Shown piece by piece: positions 4,468 through 23,185 of a stretch of 23,425 nt of DNA. The translations under genes were made by a program, and so were the position numbers. This stretch comes from a virus. A model generated the notes under the pieces. It was not told the DNA's origin. It was given only the letters and a program-made list of their open reading frames with translations, and ran no database searches. The stretch is taken from positions 1 to 23,425 of IMG/VR virus record IMGVR_UViG_3300021142_000183; one strand, given 5' to 3'. How positions within the stretch are numbered: the stretch's first letter is position 1; each line of letters starts with the position of its first letter.

Positions 4468-4475
4468 TATAAATA
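4468..4475 (+). promoter_or_regulatory. Canonical T4-type late promoter -10 box (TATAAATA)
   Basis: Exact match to the T4 late consensus TATAAATA. It lies directly behind a terminator and 23 bases before the ATG at 4499, with TTGGAG as ribosome binding site between them. This is the clearest late promoter in the window and supports a T4-like late sigma system. Confidence 0.8.
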
Positions 4476-4498: not shown

Positions 4499-4741
4499 AT
4501 GGATAAATTAAGTAGAATTTTGGGTGATCTATTCACAGGTCCAGATGGAAAAACACATGATCCTGCAAGATGGTTATGGATATTAGGTATAGTGGCATTT
4601 GTAGCATTTGCCGGATTCGAAGTGTATAAATCAGGTAAATTCGACATGCTTAATTTCGGAATTGCCTACGGTACATTGTTAGGCTCTGGTGCTGCCGGAG
4701 TAAAAATTAAAGAAACCACAGAACCAAAACCACCGGTATAA
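4499..4741 (+). CDS. Small two-helix membrane protein, holin-like
   Basis: 80 residues. A short amphipathic N-terminus is followed by DPARWLW, a hydrophobic helix at about 24-43, a short polar turn (KSGKFD), a second less hydrophobic helix at about 50-67 rich in Gly and Ala, and a charged tail ending in KPPV. Small late phage membrane proteins of this build are often annotated as putative holins or as inner-membrane proteins of unknown role. It has its own late promoter and a terminator downstream, so it is expressed as a single late gene. No endolysin lies next to it, so a lysis role is only a suggestion. Confidence 0.6.
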   Translation: MDKLSRILGDLFTGPDGKTHDPARWLWILGIVAFVAFAGFEVYKSGKFDMLNFGIAYGTLLGSGAAGVKIKETTEPKPPV

Positions 4742-5310: not shown

Positions 5311-5312
5311 TT

Positions 5313-5320
5313 GATAAATA
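5313..5320 (+). promoter_or_regulatory. T4-type late box GATAAATA, five bases before ATG
   Basis: It matches the late consensus except for the first base. If transcription starts the usual six or so bases downstream, the message begins at the ATG at 5326 and is leaderless. No Shine-Dalgarno sequence is visible. Confidence 0.5.
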
Positions 5321-5325
5321 CACAT

Positions 5326-6072
5326 ATGAGAATAGTTGAAATTTTACTACCAAAAGGTCTAACTGACCGTGGCCTATCAGCCCAATCATATAGAACAATT
5401 GATAAATTACAATCACGTATGGATCTATATGTAGATAAACTTTGCCATATGGCCGCAGGCACAGCTAGAGATTTTCTAAAATCAAAGTTAAAAGCTGATT
5501 ATGTATCACTTAAAGATATTATTCAAAAAACTAGTATTGCAGAAAGTGATTTAGCAGAGTTGGGTGCATACGAAGTATACGATACTCGTACAGGATATAA
5601 GGTAGCAGGACCGTACAACAATCTACGGCGCGCATCAAATGCAGCAGATAAACTTGATTTGAAGTTTGGAGCACATAGATATGCCTATCGACCTGTTAAA
5701 CAGTTAAAAGAAGCAGTTTATAAATTACCACTCACTTTAGATGATTTTGAACTCGTTAAGAGATTAATGGAAAAACCTATTCCAGCTATCGTGGCGCCAA
5801 TCTATATAATGGAAATTATAGAAGACGATGAGCTAAACGATCAGCTTAAATCGCTGGAAGAATCGGATCCAGGTCGCGATGTCCGCCCACTTATAGTAGA
5901 ATGGTTTAGAAGGGTCATGCCTGACCAGATGTATCGTTTCGGTCAACCTCGTGCAAGCGAGAATGCACGTAAAGGATTACTTTCCCCGATACATGGATAC
6001 ACTACGGGCACCCATACCGGGTCTTCTTTCACCGGTACCGAATCATCCGGAAATGCATATGGATTTATATAA
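5326..6072 (+). CDS. Unknown phage protein, 248 aa
   Basis: I chose the ATG at 5326 rather than an in-frame TTG at 5311, because the latter lies inside the predicted promoter. The N-terminus MRIVEILLPKGLTDR resembles the short MRI/MKI leader found on many unrelated proteins of large phages. The middle part (about 88-130) holds a repeat-friendly segment, AYEVYDTRTGYKVAGPYNNLRRASNAADKLD, of the kind seen in phage proteins that follow conserved Tyr and Gly spacing. A charged helical region follows (LEESDPGRDVRPLIVEWFRRVMP). The last ~40 residues are Gly/Ser/Thr-rich and look disordered; they overlap the start of the GIY-YIG gene by 20 bases. No function can be assigned. Confidence 0.65.
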   Translation: MRIVEILLPKGLTDRGLSAQSYRTIDKLQSRMDLYVDKLCHMAAGTARDFLKSKLKADYVSLKDIIQKTSIAESDLAELGAYEVYDTRTGYKVAGPYNNLRRASNAADKLDLKFGAHRYAYRPVKQLKEAVYKLPLTLDDFELVKRLMEKPIPAIVAPIYIMEIIEDDELNDQLKSLEESDPGRDVRPLIVEWFRRVMPDQMYRFGQPRASENARKGLLSPIHGYTTGTHTGSSFTGTESSGNAYGFI

Positions 6073-6658
6073 TATATTCTATGTATATGCATATATAGGT
6101 AACTCCGGCAAACCTTACTACATAGGGAAAGGTAAAAACAGGAGAGCCTGGGAAAAGCACACAAATATAAACAGACCTAACGATAAGTCGAAAATTGTGA
6201 TTCTCGAATCTAAATTATCCGAGATAGGTGCCTGGGCGATAGAACGCAGGATGATTTCGTGGTGGGGAAGAAAAGATATTAATACAGGCATATTACAGAA
6301 TAAATCCGATGGCGGCGAAGGTAATGTGGGTAAGATAGGCCATTCTAAGGGTGGGAGAGCCTGGACAGAAGAAGAAAAACGTAAGAAAAGCGAATCTATG
6401 CTCGGGGAGAAGAATGTTTGTTTTGGCAGGATTATGTCTGAAGAACAAAAAACAAGATTAAAACAATTTTCTGGAGAAAAACATCATGGTTATGGTAAAC
6501 CTAGTGTAATGGCGGGTAAAAATCATACTGAAGAATCTAAGAGGAAAATGTCTGAATCTCAGAGAAAAAGGCCTCCCGTCTCCGAAGAAACACGTCTCAG
6601 GAGATCTATATCCATGAAACTTGCTCATGAGAGAAGGAGAACTAAAAATGGCCTATAG
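6053..6658 (+). CDS. GIY-YIG homing endonuclease with NUMOD3 repeats
   Basis: 201 residues from the ATG at 6053; an alternative ATG lies at 6059. The nuclease domain shows YAYI at 12-15, PYYIGKGKNRRAW at 21-33, H36, the catalytic-type Glu in IERRMISWWGR and the conserved DGGEG. The second half is basic and carries NUMOD3-type DNA-binding repeats (HSKGG...WTEEEKRKKSES, NHTEESKRKMSES, VSEETRLRRSIS). This is the layout of free-standing phage enzymes that cut an allele lacking the gene and copy themselves in. Its start overlaps the 3' end of the preceding gene by 20 bases and its stop overlaps the iscU fragment start by 11 bases, so it fills the space between two coding ends exactly. An in-frame upstream ATG at 5951 only adds residues antiparallel to no known domain and is rejected. 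Confidence 0.88.
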   Translation: MHMDLYNIFYVYAYIGNSGKPYYIGKGKNRRAWEKHTNINRPNDKSKIVILESKLSEIGAWAIERRMISWWGRKDINTGILQNKSDGGEGNVGKIGHSKGGRAWTEEEKRKKSESMLGEKNVCFGRIMSEEQKTRLKQFSGEKHHGYGKPSVMAGKNHTEESKRKMSESQRKRPPVSEETRLRRSISMKLAHERRRTKNGL

Positions 6659-14623: not shown

Positions 14624-14890
14624 ATGGCATCAAAATTATCAAAAAAGAAAGTTGATGTTTCGTTTTGTGATCCAATGACATTCGAAGTTGTATGTACATT
14701 TAATCAGTGTGTAAATAAATTTACAATTGAAGGTTCAGAAGAAATAAAAAAATTTCCTAAATGGAAAAACGGACAACCAGTTATTTTTACTCAATCATAT
14801 CATCAATGTAGTGAATGTGGAAGAAAAGTAGTTGGCCGCACAGATAAATCAAAAACATATCATAGCTATATGGATAACATACTTAAATAA
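14624..14890 (+). CDS. Small zinc-ribbon-like protein
   Basis: 88 residues with two possible metal-binding pairs: C15 and C24/C29 in the first half, and CSECGRK near 62-68. It is basic at both ends. AAGGA precedes the ATG. It is the last + strand gene before the first antisense homing endonuclease, whose stop codon lies only 11 bases away. Base composition is more AT-rich than the genes upstream. Function unknown. Confidence 0.6.
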   Translation: MASKLSKKKVDVSFCDPMTFEVVCTFNQCVNKFTIEGSEEIKKFPKWKNGQPVIFTQSYHQCSECGRKVVGRTDKSKTYHSYMDNILK

Positions 14891-14901
14891 TATTCTTTAA
14901 A

Positions 14902-15597
14902 TCAAATAACAGAAAGTGAATCAATTAATTCAGTTTTTGTTATACAAGAATTGCCCCATTTGGCTCTATTATCTTTTGCAGATAACATTTGTAAATTTTT
15001 ATAGTGACCAATGATATCGGGTGTTATATTATTTTTGTATCCTTCTATTATTGAAAATTTATGATCCAATTGGAATGCTCTACTACGTTGTATCAGATTA
15101 GGATTTATTATAGATTTATATCTTCTATATGATTTATTTGAATAGCTCCATACTTCTTTTTTGTATTTTAAAAATTCTGTCTGCACATTTATTTCAGATT
15201 TATATCCTGAACAAAATTTACAGCCAAACCCGGCTAAATGGACAGATGGTGTCTGCTCGAAAATTCCGTGCTTGTGGCATTTAATTTTTATATGATCTGT
15301 GTTAAGTGTATAGGTAACAAGGCTATAATCATATAGATTTTTATGTAATATGTTTGCGTCTTTTATAAATTGTTCTGTTGTTTTTGATTTTAATTGTTTA
15401 CGCGATATATTAGCACAAGTTGGGCATCCTGACTTAGATTTGCCTATGTGGTGTAATGGTCTAACCCACCATTCTGTAGAACAGGTGTTACACTTGACAA
15501 GCAATTTTGTTCCGTGATTTATATATTCCGATTTAGAGTAATTGTATTTGGTGCCGTGTATGCTATTGCAATTTATTAAAAATTCATTTGGTGTCAT
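14902..15597 (-). CDS. Homing endonuclease, zinc-ribbon repeats plus HNH-like domain (HEG1)
   Basis: 231 residues on the opposite strand. Two repeats of the type FI..A..IHG.KYDYS (about 5-61 and 76-129) each hold cysteines for a zinc ribbon (C36, C39, C58, C61 and C107, C126, C129). The C-terminal nuclease part has FQLDHKFSIIEG (D178, H179) and the conserved tail IIGHYKNLQMLSAKDNRAKWG found in phage homing endonucleases. It is very AT-rich, unlike its neighbours. It sits tail to tail with the 88-residue gene. Its start lies two bases from the -35 of the promoter of the following glycosyltransferase gene. A leftward AATAAATA box lies 32 bases before its ATG. Confidence 0.82.
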   Translation of the reverse strand: MTPNEFLINCNSIHGTKYNYSKSEYINHGTKLLVKCNTCSTEWWVRPLHHIGKSKSGCPTCANISRKQLKSKTTEQFIKDANILHKNLYDYSLVTYTLNTDHIKIKCHKHGIFEQTPSVHLAGFGCKFCSGYKSEINVQTEFLKYKKEVWSYSNKSYRRYKSIINPNLIQRSRAFQLDHKFSIIEGYKNNITPDIIGHYKNLQMLSAKDNRAKWGNSCITKTELIDSLSVI

Positions 15598-15598
15598 C

Positions 15599-15627
15599 TT
15601 GATTCTTTTATGAAGATATGTTATACT
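15599..15627 (+). promoter_or_regulatory. Sigma70-like promoter TTGATT-17-TATACT
   Basis: The -35 is at 15599-15604 and the -10 at 15622-15627, with a 17-base spacer. It reads rightward into the glycosyltransferase gene (ATG 15653, ribosome binding site AGGGGA). The -35 begins two bases from the start codon of the antisense homing endonuclease. Confidence 0.7.
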
Positions 15628-15628
15628 G

Positions 15629-15636
15629 TATTTATT
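15629..15636 (-). promoter_or_regulatory. Leftward late-type box AATAAATA for HEG1
   Basis: On the minus strand this reads AATAAATA, two mismatches from TATAAATA. It is separated by a single base from the -10 of the rightward promoter. The distance to the ATG of HEG1 is 31 bases. Confidence 0.45.
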
Positions 15637-15652
15637 AATTTTAGGGGATTTT

Positions 15653-16831
15653 ATGGATAAATTGGCGTATATGGGTCTTGAATCATATGAAAGTCGTTAC
15701 ACTTTACAATTGCAAGATTGGAACGAACGTGTGTTCCAACAACGCGGGATTAATTATGAACTCATTACCGGTAATGAGTTAACTACTGATAAGAAAATTG
15801 TAACAGGTAGTGTGCTTGATGCACACGGGCGCACCTATTATAGTATGACACAACACGCCAATCTTATTAAGATGATGAAAGAGGGCAAATTAACTAAAAA
15901 TTCGGTAATCTTTTATGAGGATATGTTTACACCCGGCATCGAAAGCTTACCGTATATCTTAGAACAGGTTCCTAAAAAGTTTCGCCCAAAGGTGTATGTT
16001 CGTTGTTTAGCACAATCTATTGATCCAGATGATTTTGTTAATCGTGAAGGAATGGCACATTGGATGCGTCACTACGAAAAAATGGTAGATGAGTTTGTAT
16101 CAGGAATTCTTGTCGCAAGTGAGGAAATGGTTGCAAATCTGCGTATTGCAGGAATGAAAGCACCTATCTATGTAACAGGATTACCGTTTGGTAAAGAAGA
16201 AGTTAAGAGCAGAGTACCTTTTGTCAAACCAATTACATCACGTGAGCAACGTGTAGGTTTTGCAGCAAGATGGGATGACGAAAAGCAACCAGAATTCTAT
16301 ATGCAATTGGCACAGAGATTTTACAAAACTCGACCAGATGTTGAATTTGCTATATTCTGTGGTCATCCTAAACTAAAGAGTAATAATAAGCAGCATGTCG
16401 AGTTTGCCGAATATTTGACAACCAGCGGAACTGCGAATTTTAAGATCTATACTGGTCTGAAAAAGAATGACTACTATGAATTGCTTGCTGATAGCACCGT
16501 TTTATTTAACTGTGCATTGCAAGACTGGGTAAGTAACACAGTAAGCGAAGCCGATACGTTTGGCACACTAACATTATATCCAGCATATCGCAGTTTTCCG
16601 GAAGTATTTGCTAATAATCCAAAGAATATGTATATTCCGTGGAGCGTAGAAGATGCCGCAGAAAGACTTGAAAAGATGTTTGTGAGTCCGGCATCATATA
16701 AAACAGGTGCAGTAAGTGATTGGCAGAATGGAACAATAGATCGCACACTAGACGTATTTGAAGGCAAAGGCGAAGAGTGGGCACGTAATGGTAATGATTA
16801 TAGAAAACATGTAGCAACAGCAAAGTTTTAA
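15653..16831 (+). CDS. GT-B glycosyltransferase
   Basis: 392 residues with the two-domain build of GT4-like glycosyltransferases. The linker to the C-terminal domain is followed by VGFAARWDDEKQPEFYMQLA near 200-219, the usual first strand and helix of the donor-binding half. Then come EFAIFCGHP, a loop with YTGLKKNDYYELLADSTVLFNC, and the donor-site segment WVSNTVSEADTFGTLTLYPAY near 287-307, with the conserved Glu followed by a Gly-containing turn and YRSFPEVF. It would transfer a sugar from a nucleotide sugar to an unknown acceptor. Phage enzymes of this type modify DNA bases (T4 AGT and BGT have the same fold), virion proteins or host surface sugars. A GalE-like epimerase at 19357 could supply the donor. 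The acceptor cannot be read from the sequence. Confidence 0.75.
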   Translation: MDKLAYMGLESYESRYTLQLQDWNERVFQQRGINYELITGNELTTDKKIVTGSVLDAHGRTYYSMTQHANLIKMMKEGKLTKNSVIFYEDMFTPGIESLPYILEQVPKKFRPKVYVRCLAQSIDPDDFVNREGMAHWMRHYEKMVDEFVSGILVASEEMVANLRIAGMKAPIYVTGLPFGKEEVKSRVPFVKPITSREQRVGFAARWDDEKQPEFYMQLAQRFYKTRPDVEFAIFCGHPKLKSNNKQHVEFAEYLTTSGTANFKIYTGLKKNDYYELLADSTVLFNCALQDWVSNTVSEADTFGTLTLYPAYRSFPEVFANNPKNMYIPWSVEDAAERLEKMFVSPASYKTGAVSDWQNGTIDRTLDVFEGKGEEWARNGNDYRKHVATAKF

Positions 16832-16832
16832 T

Positions 16833-17090
16833 ATGACTTGTAATATTTGTCATAAGGAATATAGTGCTTCATGTGATTATAAACAAGGTCGGTGTCCGGG
16901 ACACCAACCTTTAATTGACTTAGGAAAAATTATGAATCAACCAGATCCAAAATTACATCAACGAATTAGTTTCGTTAAGAGTGCATTACGCATTGTAGCA
17001 GGATGTAGTCTTGCAGCAGGTAACCTATTTTTTGCAGGCACAATGATTGTGGTTGCAGAAATGTTGGGTATTATCGAAGAATTAGTTTAA
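16833..17090 (+). CDS. Zinc-knuckle plus membrane-segment protein, with possible internal start
   Basis: 85 residues. The N-terminal 27 residues hold CNICHKEYSASCDYKQGRCPGH, a small zinc-binding knuckle. From M34 on, the protein is a separate segment with a charged start (NQPDPKLHQRISFVKSALR) and a hydrophobic helix (IVAGCSLAAGNLFFAGTMIVV) ending EMLGIIEELV. An in-frame ATG at 16932 preceded by TAGGA could give the 52-residue membrane part alone. Each half resembles a common stand-alone small phage protein, so this may be a fusion. The start follows the glycosyltransferase stop by one base. Confidence 0.6.
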   Translation: MTCNICHKEYSASCDYKQGRCPGHQPLIDLGKIMNQPDPKLHQRISFVKSALRIVAGCSLAAGNLFFAGTMIVVAEMLGIIEELV

Positions 17091-17100
17091 AGGAAACAAT

Positions 17101-17844
17101 ATGAAAAGAGACGGACATAACAATGTGGCATTCTTCATTGGCCCAGAAGTAGAGCATACACCTGCATACTCAAAGAAGACATTATTTGTGGTTGGTAAAC
17201 AAGATCTTGCTACAATTGTAAAACACGCAACGGAGCATAAGGTCGGGCATATCTTTATGGGTGCCAATCACTCGTTCGATGTCACTGATGCATCTACACC
17301 TTATTGGGATCGGACAATTATGGCATTGCTCGATAAAGGATATTGGGTAACATTAGACTATCAAGCACATCAACACATATCTGTGTTAAAATTACTAAAT
17401 GCAGGTATTTGGCAATCGCGAATTTTTGTCCCATTGTTAAGTGTTAGGATTCCGAGTGTTCAAATGTCGAGTCCTAACCTAACAGTTAAGATTGATGATG
17501 TAGATTTCGAAGCAACTAATCCGGGTGTATGGTGTATGCACTTCCGTGAAGTAACAGATAGCAACCGTTTCACCGATTGGAACGACTATGGCACAGATGT
17601 TGTTATTAAAGAAGACGTACTAGCACCTGTTGCTCATAGGACGACACCTGTAATCAATGATCAGGAAATCGGACTCGATCCGAATGCTGTATCTAAATTA
17701 AAGCCCGAAGATGAAGAAACGAAAATATCGCCGATCCCCTTTATTGCGGGGCCTGTTGATGCAGCTGAAGCGTATGCGGAAGGTGCTAAAACCGACCCGC
17801 TCTCAGCGAAGGAATCTACAAAGAAGGCAAAGGCCAAGAAATGA
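17101..17844 (+). CDS. Conserved-looking unknown protein coupled to the QueD-like gene
   Basis: 247 residues. The first ~180 form an ordered domain with alternating strands and helices (VAFFIGPEVEHTP, TLFVVGKQDL, GHIFMGANHSFD, GYWVTLDYQAHQ, RIFVPLLSVRIPS, LTVKIDDVDF, NPGVWCMHF). The remainder is a low-complexity Lys/Ala/Pro/Glu tail ending KKAKAKK. The strand-helix pattern is compatible with a barrel or Rossmann-like fold, but I see no known catalytic motif. AGGAAA precedes the ATG. The stop overlaps the QueD-like start as ATGA, so it may act in the same pathway. Function unknown. Confidence 0.6.
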   Translation: MKRDGHNNVAFFIGPEVEHTPAYSKKTLFVVGKQDLATIVKHATEHKVGHIFMGANHSFDVTDASTPYWDRTIMALLDKGYWVTLDYQAHQHISVLKLLNAGIWQSRIFVPLLSVRIPSVQMSSPNLTVKIDDVDFEATNPGVWCMHFREVTDSNRFTDWNDYGTDVVIKEDVLAPVAHRTTPVINDQEIGLDPNAVSKLKPEDEETKISPIPFIAGPVDAAEAYAEGAKTDPLSAKESTKKAKAKK

Positions 17845-18215
17845 TTAAAAGATGGATATGGGTTAAATTCTGTAAAGAAGGTATTCATAGATACCCGGCT
17901 GCATTAACTGACCCAATGCTTGCAACAGGTAGCAATGATGATGTTAGTTTTCTAGGATATCCACATCGTCATATTTTTCATTTTAAAGTTTCTATCGAAG
18001 TCGAACATTCAGATAGGGCTATAGAATTTATACAATTCAAACGATGGCTAGAACAACTATACAATGGAACACTTCACCTCAATTTCAAATCATGTGAAAT
18101 GTTAAGTGAAGATCTATATACTGAAATTATTTCTAAATATCCTGATCGCAGTGTAACTATAGAAATCAGTGAGGATAACGAAAACGGTGCCTATATAGAA
18201 TTCATCAAAGAATAA
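17841..18215 (+). CDS. QueD-like T-fold protein lacking the catalytic cysteine
   Basis: 124 residues, the usual length for QueD (6-carboxytetrahydropterin synthase). Family features present are KEGIHRYPAA with H16 (compare FEAAHRL), PHRHIFHFKV with H42 and H44 in the HxH zinc site, AIEFIQFKRWL (compare the IIDFAELK strand-helix), and SCEMLSEDLYTEI followed by a strand with Glu in ISEDNENGA, matching the catalytic-Glu position. The Cys that precedes the HxH in QueD (KCGRLHGH) is replaced by FLGYPHRH, so ordinary QueD chemistry is doubtful. It may be a diverged relative acting on a 7-deazaguanine intermediate, fitting DpdA and QueE nearby. Its last 25 bases overlap the antisense HEG2. Confidence 0.55.
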   Translation: MIKRWIWVKFCKEGIHRYPAALTDPMLATGSNDDVSFLGYPHRHIFHFKVSIEVEHSDRAIEFIQFKRWLEQLYNGTLHLNFKSCEMLSEDLYTEIISKYPDRSVTIEISEDNENGAYIEFIKE

Positions 18216-18790
18216 AGTTCTTCGAATGTAATAGAACATGTATTATATTTTCGTCTATTTGTAGATCTTTCTATTAAATGTAAATTTTTATAACTACCTA
18301 TAAATTCGGCAGGAATATTATCTTTAAATCCTTGCTGTTTACTATATTTGTGATCTAATTCGTAATCTTTGCCTCGTTCTAATCCTAATGGATTAATTAT
18401 AGATTGATTATAAATCCAATTTGTTCTTGTAATTCTATCAACATCATCTTCGTATAATTTCCATGCTGACTTGTTGATAGGATCTATAGCAGAACCATTT
18501 ATTATTTTATTTTTAGATATATTTTCGCCTTTAATTTTACGCCATTCGGGGTCTTGATGTAATTTATGCAATTTAGCATTACCTTTATCACTCATATTTT
18601 TCATATGCTTTTGTCTATCTATTTTGGACATATTCTGTTGACGAGATTCTTCAGCCTTTTTAATAAAACCAGGGCATTGTGTAATCTTCTCAACACATCG
18701 ATATTTCTTAGAATTAAAACTTATATAGGTTGCTTGACTTTCGCATAGAAAACATTTATAATTATTTGAAGGATTTAGTAGTTTGGGCAT
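18191..18790 (-). CDS. Homing endonuclease, HNH-like, zinc-knuckle N-terminus (HEG2)
   Basis: 199 residues on the minus strand. A short zinc knuckle (C13, C16, C32, C39) is followed by a basic helical region. The nuclease domain then shows YELDHKYSKQQGF (D146, H147) and the same tail as HEG1: FIGSYKNLHLIERSTNRRKYNTCS. HEG1 and HEG2 thus share the nuclease part but differ in DNA-recognition part. It overlaps the QueD-like 3' end by 25 bases, tail to tail. Its start is preceded by AGAGAGAT and a GATAAATA late box. High AT content, as in the other antisense genes. Confidence 0.8.
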   Translation of the reverse strand: MPKLLNPSNNYKCFLCESQATYISFNSKKYRCVEKITQCPGFIKKAEESRQQNMSKIDRQKHMKNMSDKGNAKLHKLHQDPEWRKIKGENISKNKIINGSAIDPINKSAWKLYEDDVDRITRTNWIYNQSIINPLGLERGKDYELDHKYSKQQGFKDNIPAEFIGSYKNLHLIERSTNRRKYNTCSITFEELYSLMNSI

Positions 18791-18818
18791 TGTGATTATC
18801 TCTCTGTTATCGTATATT
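18790..18818 (+). promoter_or_regulatory. Sigma70-like promoter TTGTGA-17-TATATT
   Basis: The -35 at 18790-18795 starts at the first base of the HEG2 start codon, and the -10 is at 18813-18818 with a 17-base spacer. It reads rightward to the gene at 18835. The leader would be only about ten bases without a Shine-Dalgarno. Confidence 0.5.
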
Positions 18819-18822
18819 TATC
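18815..18822 (-). promoter_or_regulatory. Leftward late box GATAAATA for HEG2
   Basis: On the minus strand this is GATAAATA, one mismatch from the T4 late consensus. It lies 24 bases before the HEG2 ATG and overlaps the rightward -10 (18813-18818) by four bases. Confidence 0.6.
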
Positions 18823-18834
18823 ATTTTTGAACAA

Positions 18835-19089
18835 ATGTGGCCATTTATTACAAACAAGAAACAGGTGGAGATGATTGGTTATGATGGACCTGTCTTTGAT
18901 AGTAAATTTAAGATAGTAATTAAACGATCATATCACCCTGGTTGGGTACAAATGCTCGAATGGGTAAATTCAAACAGTAACGGATTGGTAGCAGTGAAAT
19001 TTAACAATGGATATGGATCAGAAGCTATCTACATAGGGTTTGTAGATCCCGATGATGCACTATTCTTTAAAATAAAGTATTCAACATGA
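18835..19089 (+). CDS. Small unknown phage protein
   Basis: 84 residues, with an aromatic and beta-rich composition (WPFI, YHPGWVQMLEWV, GLVAVKFNNGYGSEAIYIGFV) and no recognised motif. No ribosome binding site is seen before the ATG, while the promoter at 18790 would give a very short leader. It overlaps the next start as ATGA. Confidence 0.6.
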   Translation: MWPFITNKKQVEMIGYDGPVFDSKFKIVIKRSYHPGWVQMLEWVNSNSNGLVAVKFNNGYGSEAIYIGFVDPDDALFFKIKYST

Positions 19090-19373
19090 GCAGTTTTAAC
19101 GCTTGCGGTGAACCGGGTTTTGGTATTATAGCTCAAACGGTGGGCTCTGTCTTACCGGGCTCGGTGTTGACTTCTGGAGTAAACGGGACATCGTGGTCAC
19201 CTGTATTTACAGAATTCGATCATCAAAAACTTCTTAAACGCATAGAAGCAATAGAAGCACGGTTAGCAATTATCGAGCCCAATCAAGCATTACAGGATAA
19301 GTACCCTGCATTACAAGAGGCATACGAAGCATATAAAATTATCGAAAGGTTAGTAAATGACAAAAAAGCATAA
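19086..19373 (+). CDS. Small phage protein with C-terminal coiled coil
   Basis: 95 residues. The first ~40 are Gly/Ser/Val-rich and poorly ordered. From about 45 on it is a charged helix with regular hydrophobic spacing (LLKRIEAIEARLAII, ALQEAYEAYKIIERLV), likely a short coiled coil. Similar small proteins with the PxLQEAYEAYKxIE ending occur in many T4-like phages. Coupled by overlap on both sides. Role unknown. Confidence 0.65.
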   Translation: MSSFNACGEPGFGIIAQTVGSVLPGSVLTSGVNGTSWSPVFTEFDHQKLLKRIEAIEARLAIIEPNQALQDKYPALQEAYEAYKIIERLVNDKKA

Positions 19374-20331
19374 AATTTTAATTACTGGTGGTAGTGGGTT
19401 TGTTGGTACGCAGGTAGCACATAAACTGCACCAGCAAGGGCACCAAGTAACAATTGTTGATCGCAAGATCAAGAATTGGAATACACCAGCAATTATATTT
19501 GAAGAGGACTATCTTACTTTCCTTCAATCAAATGTTTTTCACTATGATACAATCGTACACTTAGCCGCCGAGCATCTAGTAGAACAAAGCGTAACAGAAC
19601 CGGAGAAGTATTACGCAAATAATGTGGTAAAAATGAAGGGTATGCTCGATATTATGGTCGCTAATGGCATGAAGAACATTGTCTTTAGTTCTAGCGGAAA
19701 TACCTATGGTCGTCAGGGACAAGATGGCCCACTCAAAGAGGCAGGGTTATACTATGATCCAGAGAATCCGTATGCATCAACTAAGGTAGTTGGCGAATTA
19801 ATGATTAAGGATTATGCTAGGGCATACGGCCTGAAGTATGTAAATTTTAGATACTTCAACGCCGCAGGCGCTGATCCAGAAAGTCGTTTTGGATATGTAC
19901 AACGTCCTGCTACGCACGTTATTCCTATCTTGTGTAATAAGATTTTGAATGGAGAATCATTCCCATTATTTGGTAATGACTATCCTACCAAGGATGGTAC
20001 TTGTGTACGTGATTATGTTCACGTTGCAGATTTAGCTGATGCTCATGCTAAGGCAATAGATTTCTTTGATGCCGGCAAAGGCAACGAGGCATTTAATCTA
20101 GGTGGTGGTAGTGAGGGAGTTAGCGTAAAAGAACTAGTTCATTTCGCAGGAGAAGTCGTTGGTGTTGAACCAGTAATCGAATACATGCCCAGGCGAATGG
20201 GAGATCCCGCAGAATTAGTAGCAGATATCTCTAAGGCTAAAGAGCTATTAGGATGGGAACCACAATATAATGTCAAGGATGCGATTAAGCATGCCTGGAC
20301 CTGGGAGCAAAAATTTGAAGCAAGTAAATGA
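19357..20331 (+). CDS. galE: NAD-dependent nucleotide-sugar epimerase (GalE-like)
   Basis: 324 residues, a typical extended short-chain dehydrogenase. It has the NAD-binding GGSGFVG at 11-17, HLAAEH near 68-73, the catalytic SSSGNTYG near 111-118, YASTK with Y139 and K143, NFRYFNAAGADP in the substrate region, and DGTCVRDYVHVADLADAH. These last two segments are characteristic of UDP-glucose 4-epimerases, although the C-terminal choice of sugar cannot be read. It would interconvert UDP-hexoses in the cytoplasm, possibly feeding the glycosyltransferase at 15653. The start overlaps the preceding gene by 17 bases. Slight uncertainty between GalE and another UDP-sugar epimerase or dehydratase. Confidence 0.88.
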   Translation: MTKKHKILITGGSGFVGTQVAHKLHQQGHQVTIVDRKIKNWNTPAIIFEEDYLTFLQSNVFHYDTIVHLAAEHLVEQSVTEPEKYYANNVVKMKGMLDIMVANGMKNIVFSSSGNTYGRQGQDGPLKEAGLYYDPENPYASTKVVGELMIKDYARAYGLKYVNFRYFNAAGADPESRFGYVQRPATHVIPILCNKILNGESFPLFGNDYPTKDGTCVRDYVHVADLADAHAKAIDFFDAGKGNEAFNLGGGSEGVSVKELVHFAGEVVGVEPVIEYMPRRMGDPAELVADISKAKELLGWEPQYNVKDAIKHAWTWEQKFEASK

Positions 20332-20614
20332 TCATCAAGAAGAATGTCTTAACATTCTTCAGGAAGAATGCGCTGAAGTAATTCAAGCCGCATCTAAGAT
20401 TAAGAGATTTGGTGTTGTTGGTAAGAATCCTGCTTCTACCACGACTAATCTCGAAAATTTAGAAATGGAGTTGGGTGATGTATTAGCATTAGTTGATCTG
20501 GTTACAAATGCCGGACTAGGTGTTACCGCAGAAGGCATAGAAAAAGCCCGTGTTAATAAGATGGTAAGGCTGTCTAAATATATGCATACGTGGGGCGATT
20601 CATCCGGGGTTTAA
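20315..20614 (+). CDS. mazG: MazG-like NTP pyrophosphohydrolase
   Basis: 99 residues using a TTG start at 20315, set by GGGAG at 20303-20307. A longer frame from 20270 would overlap the epimerase without a ribosome binding site; a GTG at 20324 is also possible. The all-alpha MazG core is visible: EECAEVIQAASKIKRFG with the EExxE metal site and ELGDVLALVDL with the ExxD second site. Such phage proteins remove (d)NTPs or ppGpp-like nucleotides to keep host metabolism open, or clean up modified nucleotides. It overlaps the epimerase 3' end by 17 bases, so the two are coupled. Confidence 0.75.
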   Translation: MKQVNDHQEECLNILQEECAEVIQAASKIKRFGVVGKNPASTTTNLENLEMELGDVLALVDLVTNAGLGVTAEGIEKARVNKMVRLSKYMHTWGDSSGV

Positions 20615-20615
20615 T

Positions 20616-21185
20616 GTGTTTAAGAAATGGTTTTCTAAAAAGGGTAAAATTAAAATGCCTACTACAGTAACAGTGCCTGCTTCTTTTCCTACAAATGGAC
20701 CCGTAGGTGCCACAGGAAATATCACTATATCAGCAGGAACAAATGTGCCTGTATATACAATGAACAGCAGTATGATCACAGGATCAACTATGGCTGCAGG
20801 CAGCAACTATAATACAATAACATCATCTCCCTATCAGGGATCTACCAGTTTTACAATTGGCACCAATTTACATAATTCTACTTCGGTAGTTACATTTTAT
20901 AACCAGTCTAACACAGAAATTGTTCGTCTCAATTGAGATGGTACAATAACGTGGGGTAATGGTATCGAAGTAAACGAAGCAGCAGCAGCCTTTGCTAGAT
21001 CTATATCGCTGGGCGCAGAAATGCAAGCTGGTATTACTCATGGTGTGAAGCTTAGAATGAGAGACAGTGTATTTGCTGATCTAATAGAGATTGCCAAGGA
21101 AAAAGGATCCCTAACAGCAGATGACTTGACTTATTTGTTGGAAGCTAGTAAAATAGTGGAAAAGCTAAAAGGTGGACGCGAATGA
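20616..21185 (+). pseudogene. Phage protein gene interrupted by one in-frame TGA (readthrough or decay)
   Basis: The frame starts at GTG 20616, or at ATG 20655, and gives 106 residues to the TGA at 20934-20936. It then continues open in the same frame for 82 more codons to a TGA at 21183-21185. The sequence across the stop reads EIVRLN-stop-DGTITWGNGIEVNEAAAAFARSISLG, where related phage proteins have one ordinary residue at the stop position (LNxDGxITW). The second part (MRDSVFADLIEIA, GSLTADDLTYLLEASKIVEKL) has the same even coding quality as the first, and its end is ATGA-coupled to the next gene. No start codon with a ribosome binding site follows the stop. The first part is low-charge and Thr/Ser-rich and looks virion-associated. 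TGA is a normal stop elsewhere here, so this is either a fresh nonsense change or programmed readthrough giving short and long forms. Confidence 0.75.
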
Positions 21186-21541
21186 CCAAATGGTATACAG
21201 GTATTACTGAACAAGAATTTACAGATGCAGTCAATGATGCTGTAATTGATGCACTTAAAAATGGGGTAAATGCTCATACAGCAGATTATGAAGATTATGT
21301 CCGAGCACACTTGAAATTTTGGGCAGAATCGGGAATCCCGGCACCAGAGAGTGAGATTAAATCACTACAAGCATGGCTCTACTATAGTAGTGGACATACC
21401 ATGGAAGAAATGCAAGATACACTTCGGGCACGTTTATCCTTATTAATGGATGCTGCCGTTGCGGTATACGAAGAAGGGCCGGAAGCAGAGGACCGAATCG
21501 GCATATATGATAATCGTCCTGATATAGAAAGAGGTAGATAA
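21182..21541 (+). CDS. Unknown phage protein, helical, acidic
   Basis: 119 residues that overlap the previous frame as ATGA and the QueE start as TAATG. The sequence is helical and acidic, with TEQEFTDAVNDAVIDALKNG near the N-terminus and MEEMQDTLRARLSLLMDAAVAVYE in the second half. No motif is recognised. Its position between a virion-like protein and QueE gives no clear role. Confidence 0.6.
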   Translation: MTKWYTGITEQEFTDAVNDAVIDALKNGVNAHTADYEDYVRAHLKFWAESGIPAPESEIKSLQAWLYYSSGHTMEEMQDTLRARLSLLMDAAVAVYEEGPEAEDRIGIYDNRPDIERGR

Positions 21542-22428
21542 TGTTCGGAACTAATACAATAACAGGAAAAAAGTTTTTCGATAATGCACCCAAAGACAGC
21601 CTGTATGTTACAAGCATGTTTTTCACACTTCAGGGGGAGGGTCCATATGCCGGAATGCCCGCACTCTTCATCCGCTTGACAAAGTGTAATCTAACCTGCA
21701 ACTTCTGCGATACATTCTTCGATGATGGCGAATGGATGACATATAATGAAATCTTTGCAAAAGCATATCATACCATTTGCGATTATTGGAATAATAAAGG
21801 GCAACCTGTACCATTGTGGGCATTGCCTATTTCAGTTATGTCTGATAAACAATATGACTTTCCAAATATTGTATTGGTAATGACAGGTGGTGAACCACTG
21901 TTACAAGAAAACATAGGGCCATTTTTGGATAGAGCAAGTCACATATTTGGTAAGACACAAATTGAAAGCAATGGTATTCCTGATACAGTTGTACCAGAAT
22001 GTACTATGCTTGTATGTAGTCCTAAGTGTGCAGAGAAGGAAGGTAAACCAACAAAATATCTGAAGCCGAGCAAGACTATTTTAGAACGTGCTGATTGTTT
22101 GAAATTTGTTATGTCTGCTGATCCAGAAAGCCCATACCATACTATCCCTGATTGGGCAATTGAATGGTCAGAAACAAAGGGCGATGTATATTGCAGCCCA
22201 ATGAATATATACAATACCTTTCCGCAGAAGATTAAATTACTCCGTGCAGAGAAGGGTGAGATTACAATGGCAGAACGTAGCACGGTAGACGAGACCATAG
22301 ATTTTTGGGAGCCAGGGCTGCTCAATCTAGCAGAGAATGAAGCAAATCACAAATATACAGCACGATATTGTATGGATCACGGATTTAGATTAAATCTGCA
22401 GATGCATCTTTACGCCGGCCTTGCATAG
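21541..22428 (+). CDS. queE: 7-carboxy-7-deazaguanine synthase QueE (radical SAM)
   Basis: 295 residues. The radical-SAM cluster motif CNLTCNFC (C49, C53, C56, CxxxCxxC) follows the family opening FTLQGEGPYAGMPALFIRL. GGEPLLQ at 116-122 is the usual second motif that contacts SAM, followed by the QueE-type CSPKCAEKEG region. QueE converts 6-carboxytetrahydropterin into 7-carboxy-7-deazaguanine, the step that builds the 7-deazapurine ring. In phages it supplies precursors for DpdA. It is longer than many bacterial QueE (about 220), with an insertion between the cluster motif and GGEP (residues 60-110). Start by TAATG overlap with the preceding gene. Its last 44 bases overlap the antisense HEG3. 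Confidence 0.92.
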   Translation: MFGTNTITGKKFFDNAPKDSLYVTSMFFTLQGEGPYAGMPALFIRLTKCNLTCNFCDTFFDDGEWMTYNEIFAKAYHTICDYWNNKGQPVPLWALPISVMSDKQYDFPNIVLVMTGGEPLLQENIGPFLDRASHIFGKTQIESNGIPDTVVPECTMLVCSPKCAEKEGKPTKYLKPSKTILERADCLKFVMSADPESPYHTIPDWAIEWSETKGDVYCSPMNIYNTFPQKIKLLRAEKGEITMAERSTVDETIDFWEPGLLNLAENEANHKYTARYCMDHGFRLNLQMHLYAGLA

Positions 22429-23173
22429 AACATTCTCTACAGCAATATTTTTTATTTTCCCAAGGAACTGAACTAAAGGATGTATTGCATATAGGGCAAA
22501 TGGTGGTTATGCGTTTGCAGTTATCACCGTGATGTCTTGCATAGTTTCCGGGATCTACCACTTTAAGGCAATGCGGACATTCTGTTTTAGGAAGTTGACC
22601 ATTAGTCTGCATAAATCGTTGCCAGGGATTAGTTTGATGTCTTTCCTTCATACGAGTAGATGCTGCCAGTGTTTCTTCGGTAGAATTGGGTCCGCGTGAT
22701 TTCCTGGTTAACATATTTGCCTTTATCTCTGCTGCACGCTCTTCGCCATACAGTTCAATAAAGGATTTATTTTTACGATCAGAAGATAAAGATGCCTGCA
22801 TTTTTAACTTATAAGTAGTATAGAGATTAGATTGAAATCGACTTTGGTGTTTATTGGCTTGGTTGGTCATTGTCCATAATGCATATACCATCTTATTTTT
22901 ATCAGAGCTCGATAGCATTTTGGTAAGAAGTAGATGACAAATAAAGTGTTCTTTTGGGGTCAGTAATACTTTATTCCAGGAATTGAGTTTTAAATCTTTA
23001 AATTCCGGTTTAATAGATTTAGGTATAATGTGGTGCGATTCGTAATAAACATAGTCCTTATTATTTTTAGGTAGTTTATTGCGTTTCACTTGTAATGCAT
23101 TATTGATTATGTTATAATAGCATTTAGAATATTTATTAGAGAGAAAAGTTGAGGTAAAGTATTTGTTTAGCAT
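22385..23173 (-). CDS. HNH homing endonuclease (HEG3)
   Basis: 262 residues on the minus strand. The HNH core shows YYESHHIIPKS (H47, H48) followed by LNSWNKVLLTPKEHFICHLLLTKM, the pattern of phage HNH homing endonucleases. A basic middle region and two zinc-binding clusters follow (CPHC with a downstream HH...C; CPIC with CC..C). It is not closely related in sequence to HEG1 and HEG2. Its final 14 or so residues (to DASADLI) are encoded antisense to the QueE 3' end (44-base overlap), suggesting a lost stop after insertion. A GATAAATA box lies four bases before the ATG. Confidence 0.85.
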   Translation of the reverse strand: MLNKYFTSTFLSNKYSKCYYNIINNALQVKRNKLPKNNKDYVYYESHHIIPKSIKPEFKDLKLNSWNKVLLTPKEHFICHLLLTKMLSSSDKNKMVYALWTMTNQANKHQSRFQSNLYTTYKLKMQASLSSDRKNKSFIELYGEERAAEIKANMLTRKSRGPNSTEETLAASTRMKERHQTNPWQRFMQTNGQLPKTECPHCLKVVDPGNYARHHGDNCKRITTICPICNTSFSSVPWENKKYCCRECSMQGRRKDASADLI

Positions 23174-23178
23174 ATACT
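23149..23178 (+). promoter_or_regulatory. Sigma70-like promoter TTGAGG-18-TATACT
   Basis: The -35 is at 23149-23154, the spacer is 18 bases and the -10 is at 23173-23178. It reads rightward to the small genes at 23213. The -35 lies within the HEG3 coding sequence. Confidence 0.5.
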
Positions 23179-23185
23179 ATTTATC
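23178..23185 (-). promoter_or_regulatory. Leftward late box GATAAATA for HEG3
   Basis: On the minus strand this is GATAAATA. It lies four bases before the HEG3 ATG, which would make the message leaderless, and overlaps the last base of the rightward -10 TATACT. Confidence 0.55.

Follow-up and report, generated by a model that had tools for sequence, protein, structure and literature searches.

Late-promoter boxes at antisense homing endonuclease genes and a predicted leaderless class of late transcripts in a clade of T4-related jumbo phages

Results

Three antisense endonuclease genes and their boxes

The complete 23,425-base IMG/VR record IMGVR_UViG_3300021142_000183, a jumbo phage fragment referred to here as the window, carries three antisense homing endonuclease genes (HEG1, HEG2 and HEG3), and we analysed how their promoters and start codons are arranged. 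An initial annotation had described a leftward T4-type late box and a rightward sigma70-like promoter coinciding at the start of each gene, and all of the strings it quoted are present in the sequence at the positions given. HEG1 (14902-15597, minus strand; phrog_559/681) encodes an HNH endonuclease and HEG2 (18191-18790, minus strand; phrog_5104) an HNH-like endonuclease, and the two have a C-terminal block in common (41% over 71 amino acids, E = 9e-16). HEG3 (22385-23173, minus strand) encodes a homing endonuclease of another type (phrog_655, E = 1.4e-34) with no significant match to HEG2 when the two were compared; the division into two types that had been proposed is thus borne out.

The late box GATAAATA of HEG2 lies at 18815-18822 (minus strand), followed by a Shine-Dalgarno-like GAGAGAT at 18798-18804 (minus strand). 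HEG3 has the same box, GATAAATA, at 23178-23185 (minus strand), only 4 nt before its ATG: the predicted transcription start (+1), at 23173/23172, coincides with the start codon, so that a leaderless late mRNA is expected. The possible late box of HEG1 is AATAAATA at 15629-15636 (minus strand), 31 nt from the ATG of the gene, with a poor Shine-Dalgarno sequence. The leftward boxes of HEG2 and HEG3, which are instances of a start-enriched 8-mer (see below), look like real T4-type late promoters, as had been suggested; that of HEG1 may also be one, but is a weaker case.

The late box and late sigma factor in the clade

The family-B DNA polymerase of the window shares ~40% identity with its counterparts in Sinorhizobium phage Phosso, Agrobacterium phage Atu_ph07 and Klebsiella phage RaK2, and IMG/VR contains 66 loci with relatives of it. 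Five large relatives, taken piecewise, made up the statistics set (G001, 385 kb; G002, 369 kb; G003, 363 kb; G004, 238 kb; G005, 210 kb), with T4, RaK2, Phosso and PA5oct as outgroups for the box and start statistics; the relatives are metagenomic contigs, and the statistics rest on simple open reading frame (ORF) calls.

When 8-mers within 60 bases upstream of predicted starts were counted de novo, GATAAATA came first: 73 of its 121 occurrences fall there, with 3.9 expected, and it is the top start-enriched 8-mer in each of the five relatives. The NATAAATA box is enriched a short distance upstream of genes, as expected of a T4-type late promoter. The window itself has five occurrences of KATAAATA against 5.3 by chance, and all five are 4-40 nt upstream of a sense-strand start. 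This placement, together with the start enrichment of GATAAATA across the relatives, puts the position of the window boxes well above chance. The first base of the box varies at conserved promoters, the MINLEEIQ family showing G, C, A and T.

The matching sigma factor family, gp55 (phrog_234), has one member each in G001, G002, G003 and G005 (E values of 3e-19 to 5e-22) and none in 14 control genomes; it is also present in G007, RaK2, PA5oct, Phosso and Atu_ph07.

The box travels with the endonuclease gene

Comparison with relatives shows how closely the HEG2 box is tied to its gene. Copies of HEG2 occupy the same site in L003 (identical) and in L029, which is part of G002 (about 64-70%), and a homologue is found elsewhere in L068 (61%). 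The DNA match between HEG2 and L029 stops 1 nt past the box, which forms the outer edge of the conserved block, and all three homologues retain both the late box and the GAGAGAT Shine-Dalgarno sequence. The box therefore belongs to, and travels with, the endonuclease block. The HEG2 site is empty in many relatives, in which the flanking genes overlap with nothing between them. Empty sites were also seen for HEG1, in L035 (flanks 18 nt apart), and for HEG3, in L126 (G005; flanks abutting). Homologues of HEG3 with the same box-ATG arrangement are present in L195 (60%) and L069 (57%), and no homologue of HEG1 was found in a scan of viral contigs. Across the relatives, a start-proximal box precedes 17 of 36 HEG-type genes, as compared with 206 of 1538 other genes (p = 1.5e-6). 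Late promoters thus recur with different endonuclease families, as the initial annotation had proposed; the back-to-back module in which it had placed them does not, the offset between the rightward -10 hexamer and the box differing from site to site (-7, -2 and -5).

Several neighbouring features were seen at these sites. A small zinc-ribbon-like gene (14624-14890, plus strand) sits between HEG1 and the flank that L035 has in common; compared with L035, the inserted block thus consists of this gene together with HEG1. Inside a plus-strand gene at 16833-17090, the minus strand has a 12-bp hairpin (16885-16911) with a T-rich stretch after it, which could end leftward HEG2 antisense transcripts. 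The 3' end of queE overlaps HEG3; the window queE has no insert, and its counterpart beside the HEG3 site in L126 (6637-8487, minus strand) holds an in-frame insert of ~320 amino acids with intein-like ends in the radical-SAM cysteine motif. Endonuclease genes are abundant in G001 and G002, which have 15 and 12 phrog_655 matches per contig, respectively, several of the frames being interrupted.

Two classes of box-to-start spacing

We counted ATGs that open frames of at least 80 codons downstream of 407 boxes in the five relatives. The spacing is bimodal, with 63 ATGs at 4-7 nt after the box, 11 at 8-15 nt and 107 at 16-27 nt. Genes of the long class, to which HEG2 belongs, have a Shine-Dalgarno sequence. 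Those of the short class do not: the box fills the space upstream of the start, there is no G enrichment downstream of the box such as marks the Shine-Dalgarno sequence of long-class genes, and there are few alternative in-frame ATGs. The short class is also nearly exclusive to ATG, with GTG and TTG found at 4-7 nt only 2 and 3 times, respectively, against the 63 ATGs. In 71 of 91 short-class genes the A of the ATG is the fifth or sixth base after the box, where +1 is expected; genes led by a Shine-Dalgarno sequence have A in 66% at each of these two positions. The peak depends on the box itself: at sites where its last base is changed (GATAAATC), just 2 starts lie at 4-7 nt among 113 sites, as compared with 61 among 318.

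The short-class arrangement is retained within orthologue families whose proteins are about 55-85% identical, often with identical spacing in all genomes. It is close to absent from the other T4-like phages, with no such start in T4, RaK2 or Phosso and 2 in PA5oct, versus 89 in the five clade genomes; in further clade contigs the pattern stands well above a reversed-pattern control. When the tallies of phrog_655 and phrog_314 are added together, endonucleases account for ~25 of the 91 short-class genes and 5 of the 97 long-class genes.

An example in the window is a core gene (MRIVEILLPKG...; 5326-6072, plus strand), whose ATG at 5326 is 5 nt after a late box GATAAATA at 5313-5320 (plus strand). 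It is predicted to be leaderless, and its orthologues in G002, G003, G004 and G005 have the same arrangement. The start of this gene is at 5326, and a mechanical ORF list had mis-started it at 5311. A fourth endonuclease-like ORF, with NUMOD3 and a GIY-YIG-like N-terminus, lies in sense orientation at 5951-6658 (plus strand), downstream of the box at 5313 and with no late box of its own.

Our first view of the near-start boxes was that they marked misassigned start codons, a view overturned by the bimodal spacing, the use of ATG only and the conservation among orthologues. Phage ribosomal protein S21 was considered as the cause of a leaderless preference and found not to discriminate: homologues are present in four of the five clade genomes (G001-G004), and also in Phosso and PA5oct, which do not have the leaderless class, and in Atu_ph07.

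A proposed fusion of late promoter and start codon

We consider it likely that the boxes of HEG2 and HEG3, and possibly that of HEG1, are late promoters of the endonuclease genes, that the sigma70-like hexamers opposite them arose by chance, and that the clade uses two promoter builds, one led by a Shine-Dalgarno sequence and one leaderless. Since the endonuclease genes would have inserted antisense into co-directional gene strings, they would need a promoter of their own, and the 8-bp gp55-type box at the edge of the inserted block would supply it. In the first build, seen in HEG2, the box would be followed by ~17-25 nt and a start with a Shine-Dalgarno sequence. In the second, seen in HEG3 and tens of other genes, the ATG would follow the box by 4-7 nt; as the AUG coincides with the expected first transcribed base, the late mRNA would be leaderless, and as it is not preceded by a Shine-Dalgarno sequence, the same AUG should be silent in read-through RNA. 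The fusion of promoter and start would in this way limit translation to RNA initiated late. The sequences themselves show the enrichment of the box, the two spacing classes, their conservation and the near absence of the short class from other T4-like phages; the transcription starts, leaderless translation and late-only control are inferred from them. The broader proposal, which we favour with less assurance, is that in this clade of T4-related jumbo phages the late-sigma promoter is fused to the AUG in many genes, giving leaderless late mRNAs, and that the endonuclease genes use the fusion as a self-contained, orientation-independent cassette of ~16 bp that cannot be translated from read-through RNA.

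Some observations weigh against this interpretation. The +1 position is a prediction from T4 geometry (PMC1524935) and base composition. The box is degenerate in L070, where a 67% homologue of HEG3 occupies the same site, and HEG1 offers only AATAAATA, distant from its ATG. No gp55 gene was identified in G004, whose 238-kb contig may be incomplete, and the locus lies outside the 23-kb window fragment. The endonuclease counts of 25 and 5 add two family tallies in which proteins were not tagged singly. Finally, the joint chance of the sigma70-like coincidence at all three sites is ~5e-4, if the sites are treated as preselected and taken at face value.

Rightward sigma70-like elements and alternative explanations

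Each of the three rightward hexamer pairs agrees with the sigma70 consensus in 9 of 12 bases. They are TTGATT-17-TATACT with a TG extension at HEG1 (15599-15627, plus strand), the most plausible of the three, TTGTGA-17-TATATT at HEG2 (18790-18818, plus strand) and TTGAGG-18-TATACT at HEG3 (23149-23178, plus strand), both of the latter probably due to chance. Sites of this quality number 71 in 19.4 kb, versus 69.7 in shuffled sequence, and are therefore background. As the divergent starts at the three junctions are just 40-55 bp apart, promoters in these spacers would unavoidably overlap; with the box taken as given and the base composition of each site allowed for, an overlap has a probability of 0.078 at HEG1, 0.067 at HEG2 and 0.088 at HEG3. 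Neither the -10 nor the -35 element was found in the diverged HEG2 homologues L029 and L068, where the late box persists. The frequency of overlaps relative to random sequence, which had been named beforehand as a test that could refute the paired arrangement, is not above chance: antisense sigma70-like sites overlap 14 of 188 late boxes, with 11.6 expected from shuffled flanks, and of 52 divergent gene pairs from beyond the window 4 have such an overlap, with 3.5 expected.

A fixed junction motif, which the initial annotation had suggested searching for, does not recur. TATAYTATTTATC has an exact match only at HEG3 in the window, with counts near those of shuffles, and TATACTATTTATC with up to two mismatches is about as frequent in the relatives as its reversed-pattern control. 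We also considered whether an extended late consensus, read on the opposite strand, would by itself account for TATACT; the bases past the box are A+T-rich and not fixed, which would contribute only slightly. Judged by these comparisons, the rightward hexamers are chance matches in A+T-rich spacers of 40-55 bp rather than parts of a conserved early/late switch.

The best of the alternatives is that the rightward promoter of HEG1 is the single genuine one, having been gained to rescue a glycosyltransferase gene at 15653 that the insertion cut off, with the other two due to chance. The element, TTGATT-17-TGTTATACT, would give a leader of ~19 nt with an AGGGGA Shine-Dalgarno sequence, and relatives have other putative promoters before the glycosyltransferase gene (TTGACA-17-TAAAAT in L033 and a rightward TATAAATA in L047). 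Set against this, it is a single occurrence, and 9-of-12 sites are equally common in shuffled sequence; we regard the explanation as tentative and less likely than not.

It could also be that an ATG 4-7 nt after a box is translated without a Shine-Dalgarno sequence from longer transcripts begun elsewhere, the overlap with the box having another cause. Initiation without a Shine-Dalgarno sequence exists, and the leaderless starts are predictions from box spacing. However, the near-exclusive use of ATG, the scarcity of starts at 8-15 nt, the placement of the A of the AUG on the expected +1 and the conserved spacing in orthologues all follow from leaderless initiation, and the peak vanishes with the change of the last box base to give GATAAATC. 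We therefore think this alternative unlikely.

The switch put forward in the initial annotation, in which host sigma70 polymerase would serve the neighbour early and gp55 polymerase the endonuclease gene late from mutually exclusive overlapping promoters, could draw on the presence of a 9-of-12 pair at all three junctions (that of HEG1 with a TG extension and a suitable leader) and on the empty sites, which show that until the insertion the downstream genes lacked a promoter in a spacer and could have been helped by a new one, but we find it the least credible of the three, as the geometry differs between sites, L029 and L068 do not retain the rightward half, overlaps are about as frequent as chance predicts among both the 188 boxes and the 52 divergent pairs, and in G002 the divergent neighbour of an antisense GIY-YIG gene carries a late box itself. 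Given this late/late arrangement (186871-186888, minus strand, and 186907-186922, plus strand), the neighbour is not necessarily expressed early.

Other features of the window

Two further late boxes lie on the plus strand: GATAAATA at 1403-1410, upstream of a 984-amino-acid structural gene at 1451, and TATAAATA at 4468-4475, upstream of a gene at 4499 with a predicted leader of ~17 nt. The gene at 10012-10827 matches records of relatives annotated as sliding clamp/PCNA, and its own PHROG has no function; it may be the counterpart of the T4 clamp gp45, a co-activator of late promoters. An ORF at 20616-21185 (plus strand) has an in-frame TGA at ~20935-20937 and homologues (L057, L044, L047 and others) that are uninterrupted; it could be an inactivated copy, a sequencing difference or a case of readthrough. 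Rfam and tRNA scans of the window gave no matches.

Discussion

T4 late promoters, which depend on gp55, gp33 and gp45, have a TATAAATA box at -13 to -6 (PMC1524935). Those of the present clade resemble them in the core ATAAATA, in the predicted distance to +1 and, in the relatives, in a gp55-family sigma factor. They differ in that the first base of the box is mostly G and in the large class with an AUG at the expected +1, of which T4 has none (0 of 65 boxes).

Homing endonuclease genes of T4 also have late promoters, namely those of I-TevI, I-TevIII and, by prediction, segB (PMC2988022), and the clade genes are alike in having their own late promoter and, presumably, late-restricted expression. 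The T4 genes are co-oriented with their neighbours except for segD, the sole antisense one, for which no promoter was identified (PMC2988022), whereas antisense endonuclease genes of the clade carry boxes. In T4, hairpins hide the ribosome site of the endonuclease in early transcripts (PMC2988022, PMC3014915); a leaderless start of the HEG3 type would take the place of this sequestered site. The proposed rightward promoters would overlap the endonuclease gene and serve the neighbour, as do neighbour-gene promoters located within endonuclease genes of T4 (segG/gene 32 and others; PMC2988022), but the clade elements are unconserved and occur at background frequency.

The mRNA of lambda cI is leaderless. 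Leaderless mRNAs also occur in mycobacteria (PMC4633059). The predicted clade transcripts would share with these and other bacterial examples a 5'-terminal AUG, the lack of a Shine-Dalgarno sequence and the preference for AUG. They would differ, on the sequence evidence, in belonging to a phage late-sigma promoter class and in involving tens of genes across a jumbo-phage clade. A search of open-licence papers turned up no description of leaderless late transcripts from T4-related phages, and the novelty of the class is accordingly provisional.

For annotation, the consequence is a correction of gene starts, since callers that seek a Shine-Dalgarno sequence misplace starts of this kind, such as 5311 for 5326. 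The double-promoter switch would matter less, as it does not recur. If our interpretation is correct, an entire class of promoters in a large group of phages yields leaderless mRNAs. This would provide a natural system in which to study leaderless translation during infection, and would explain in a simple way how mobile endonuclease genes could be expressed only late without RNA hairpins.

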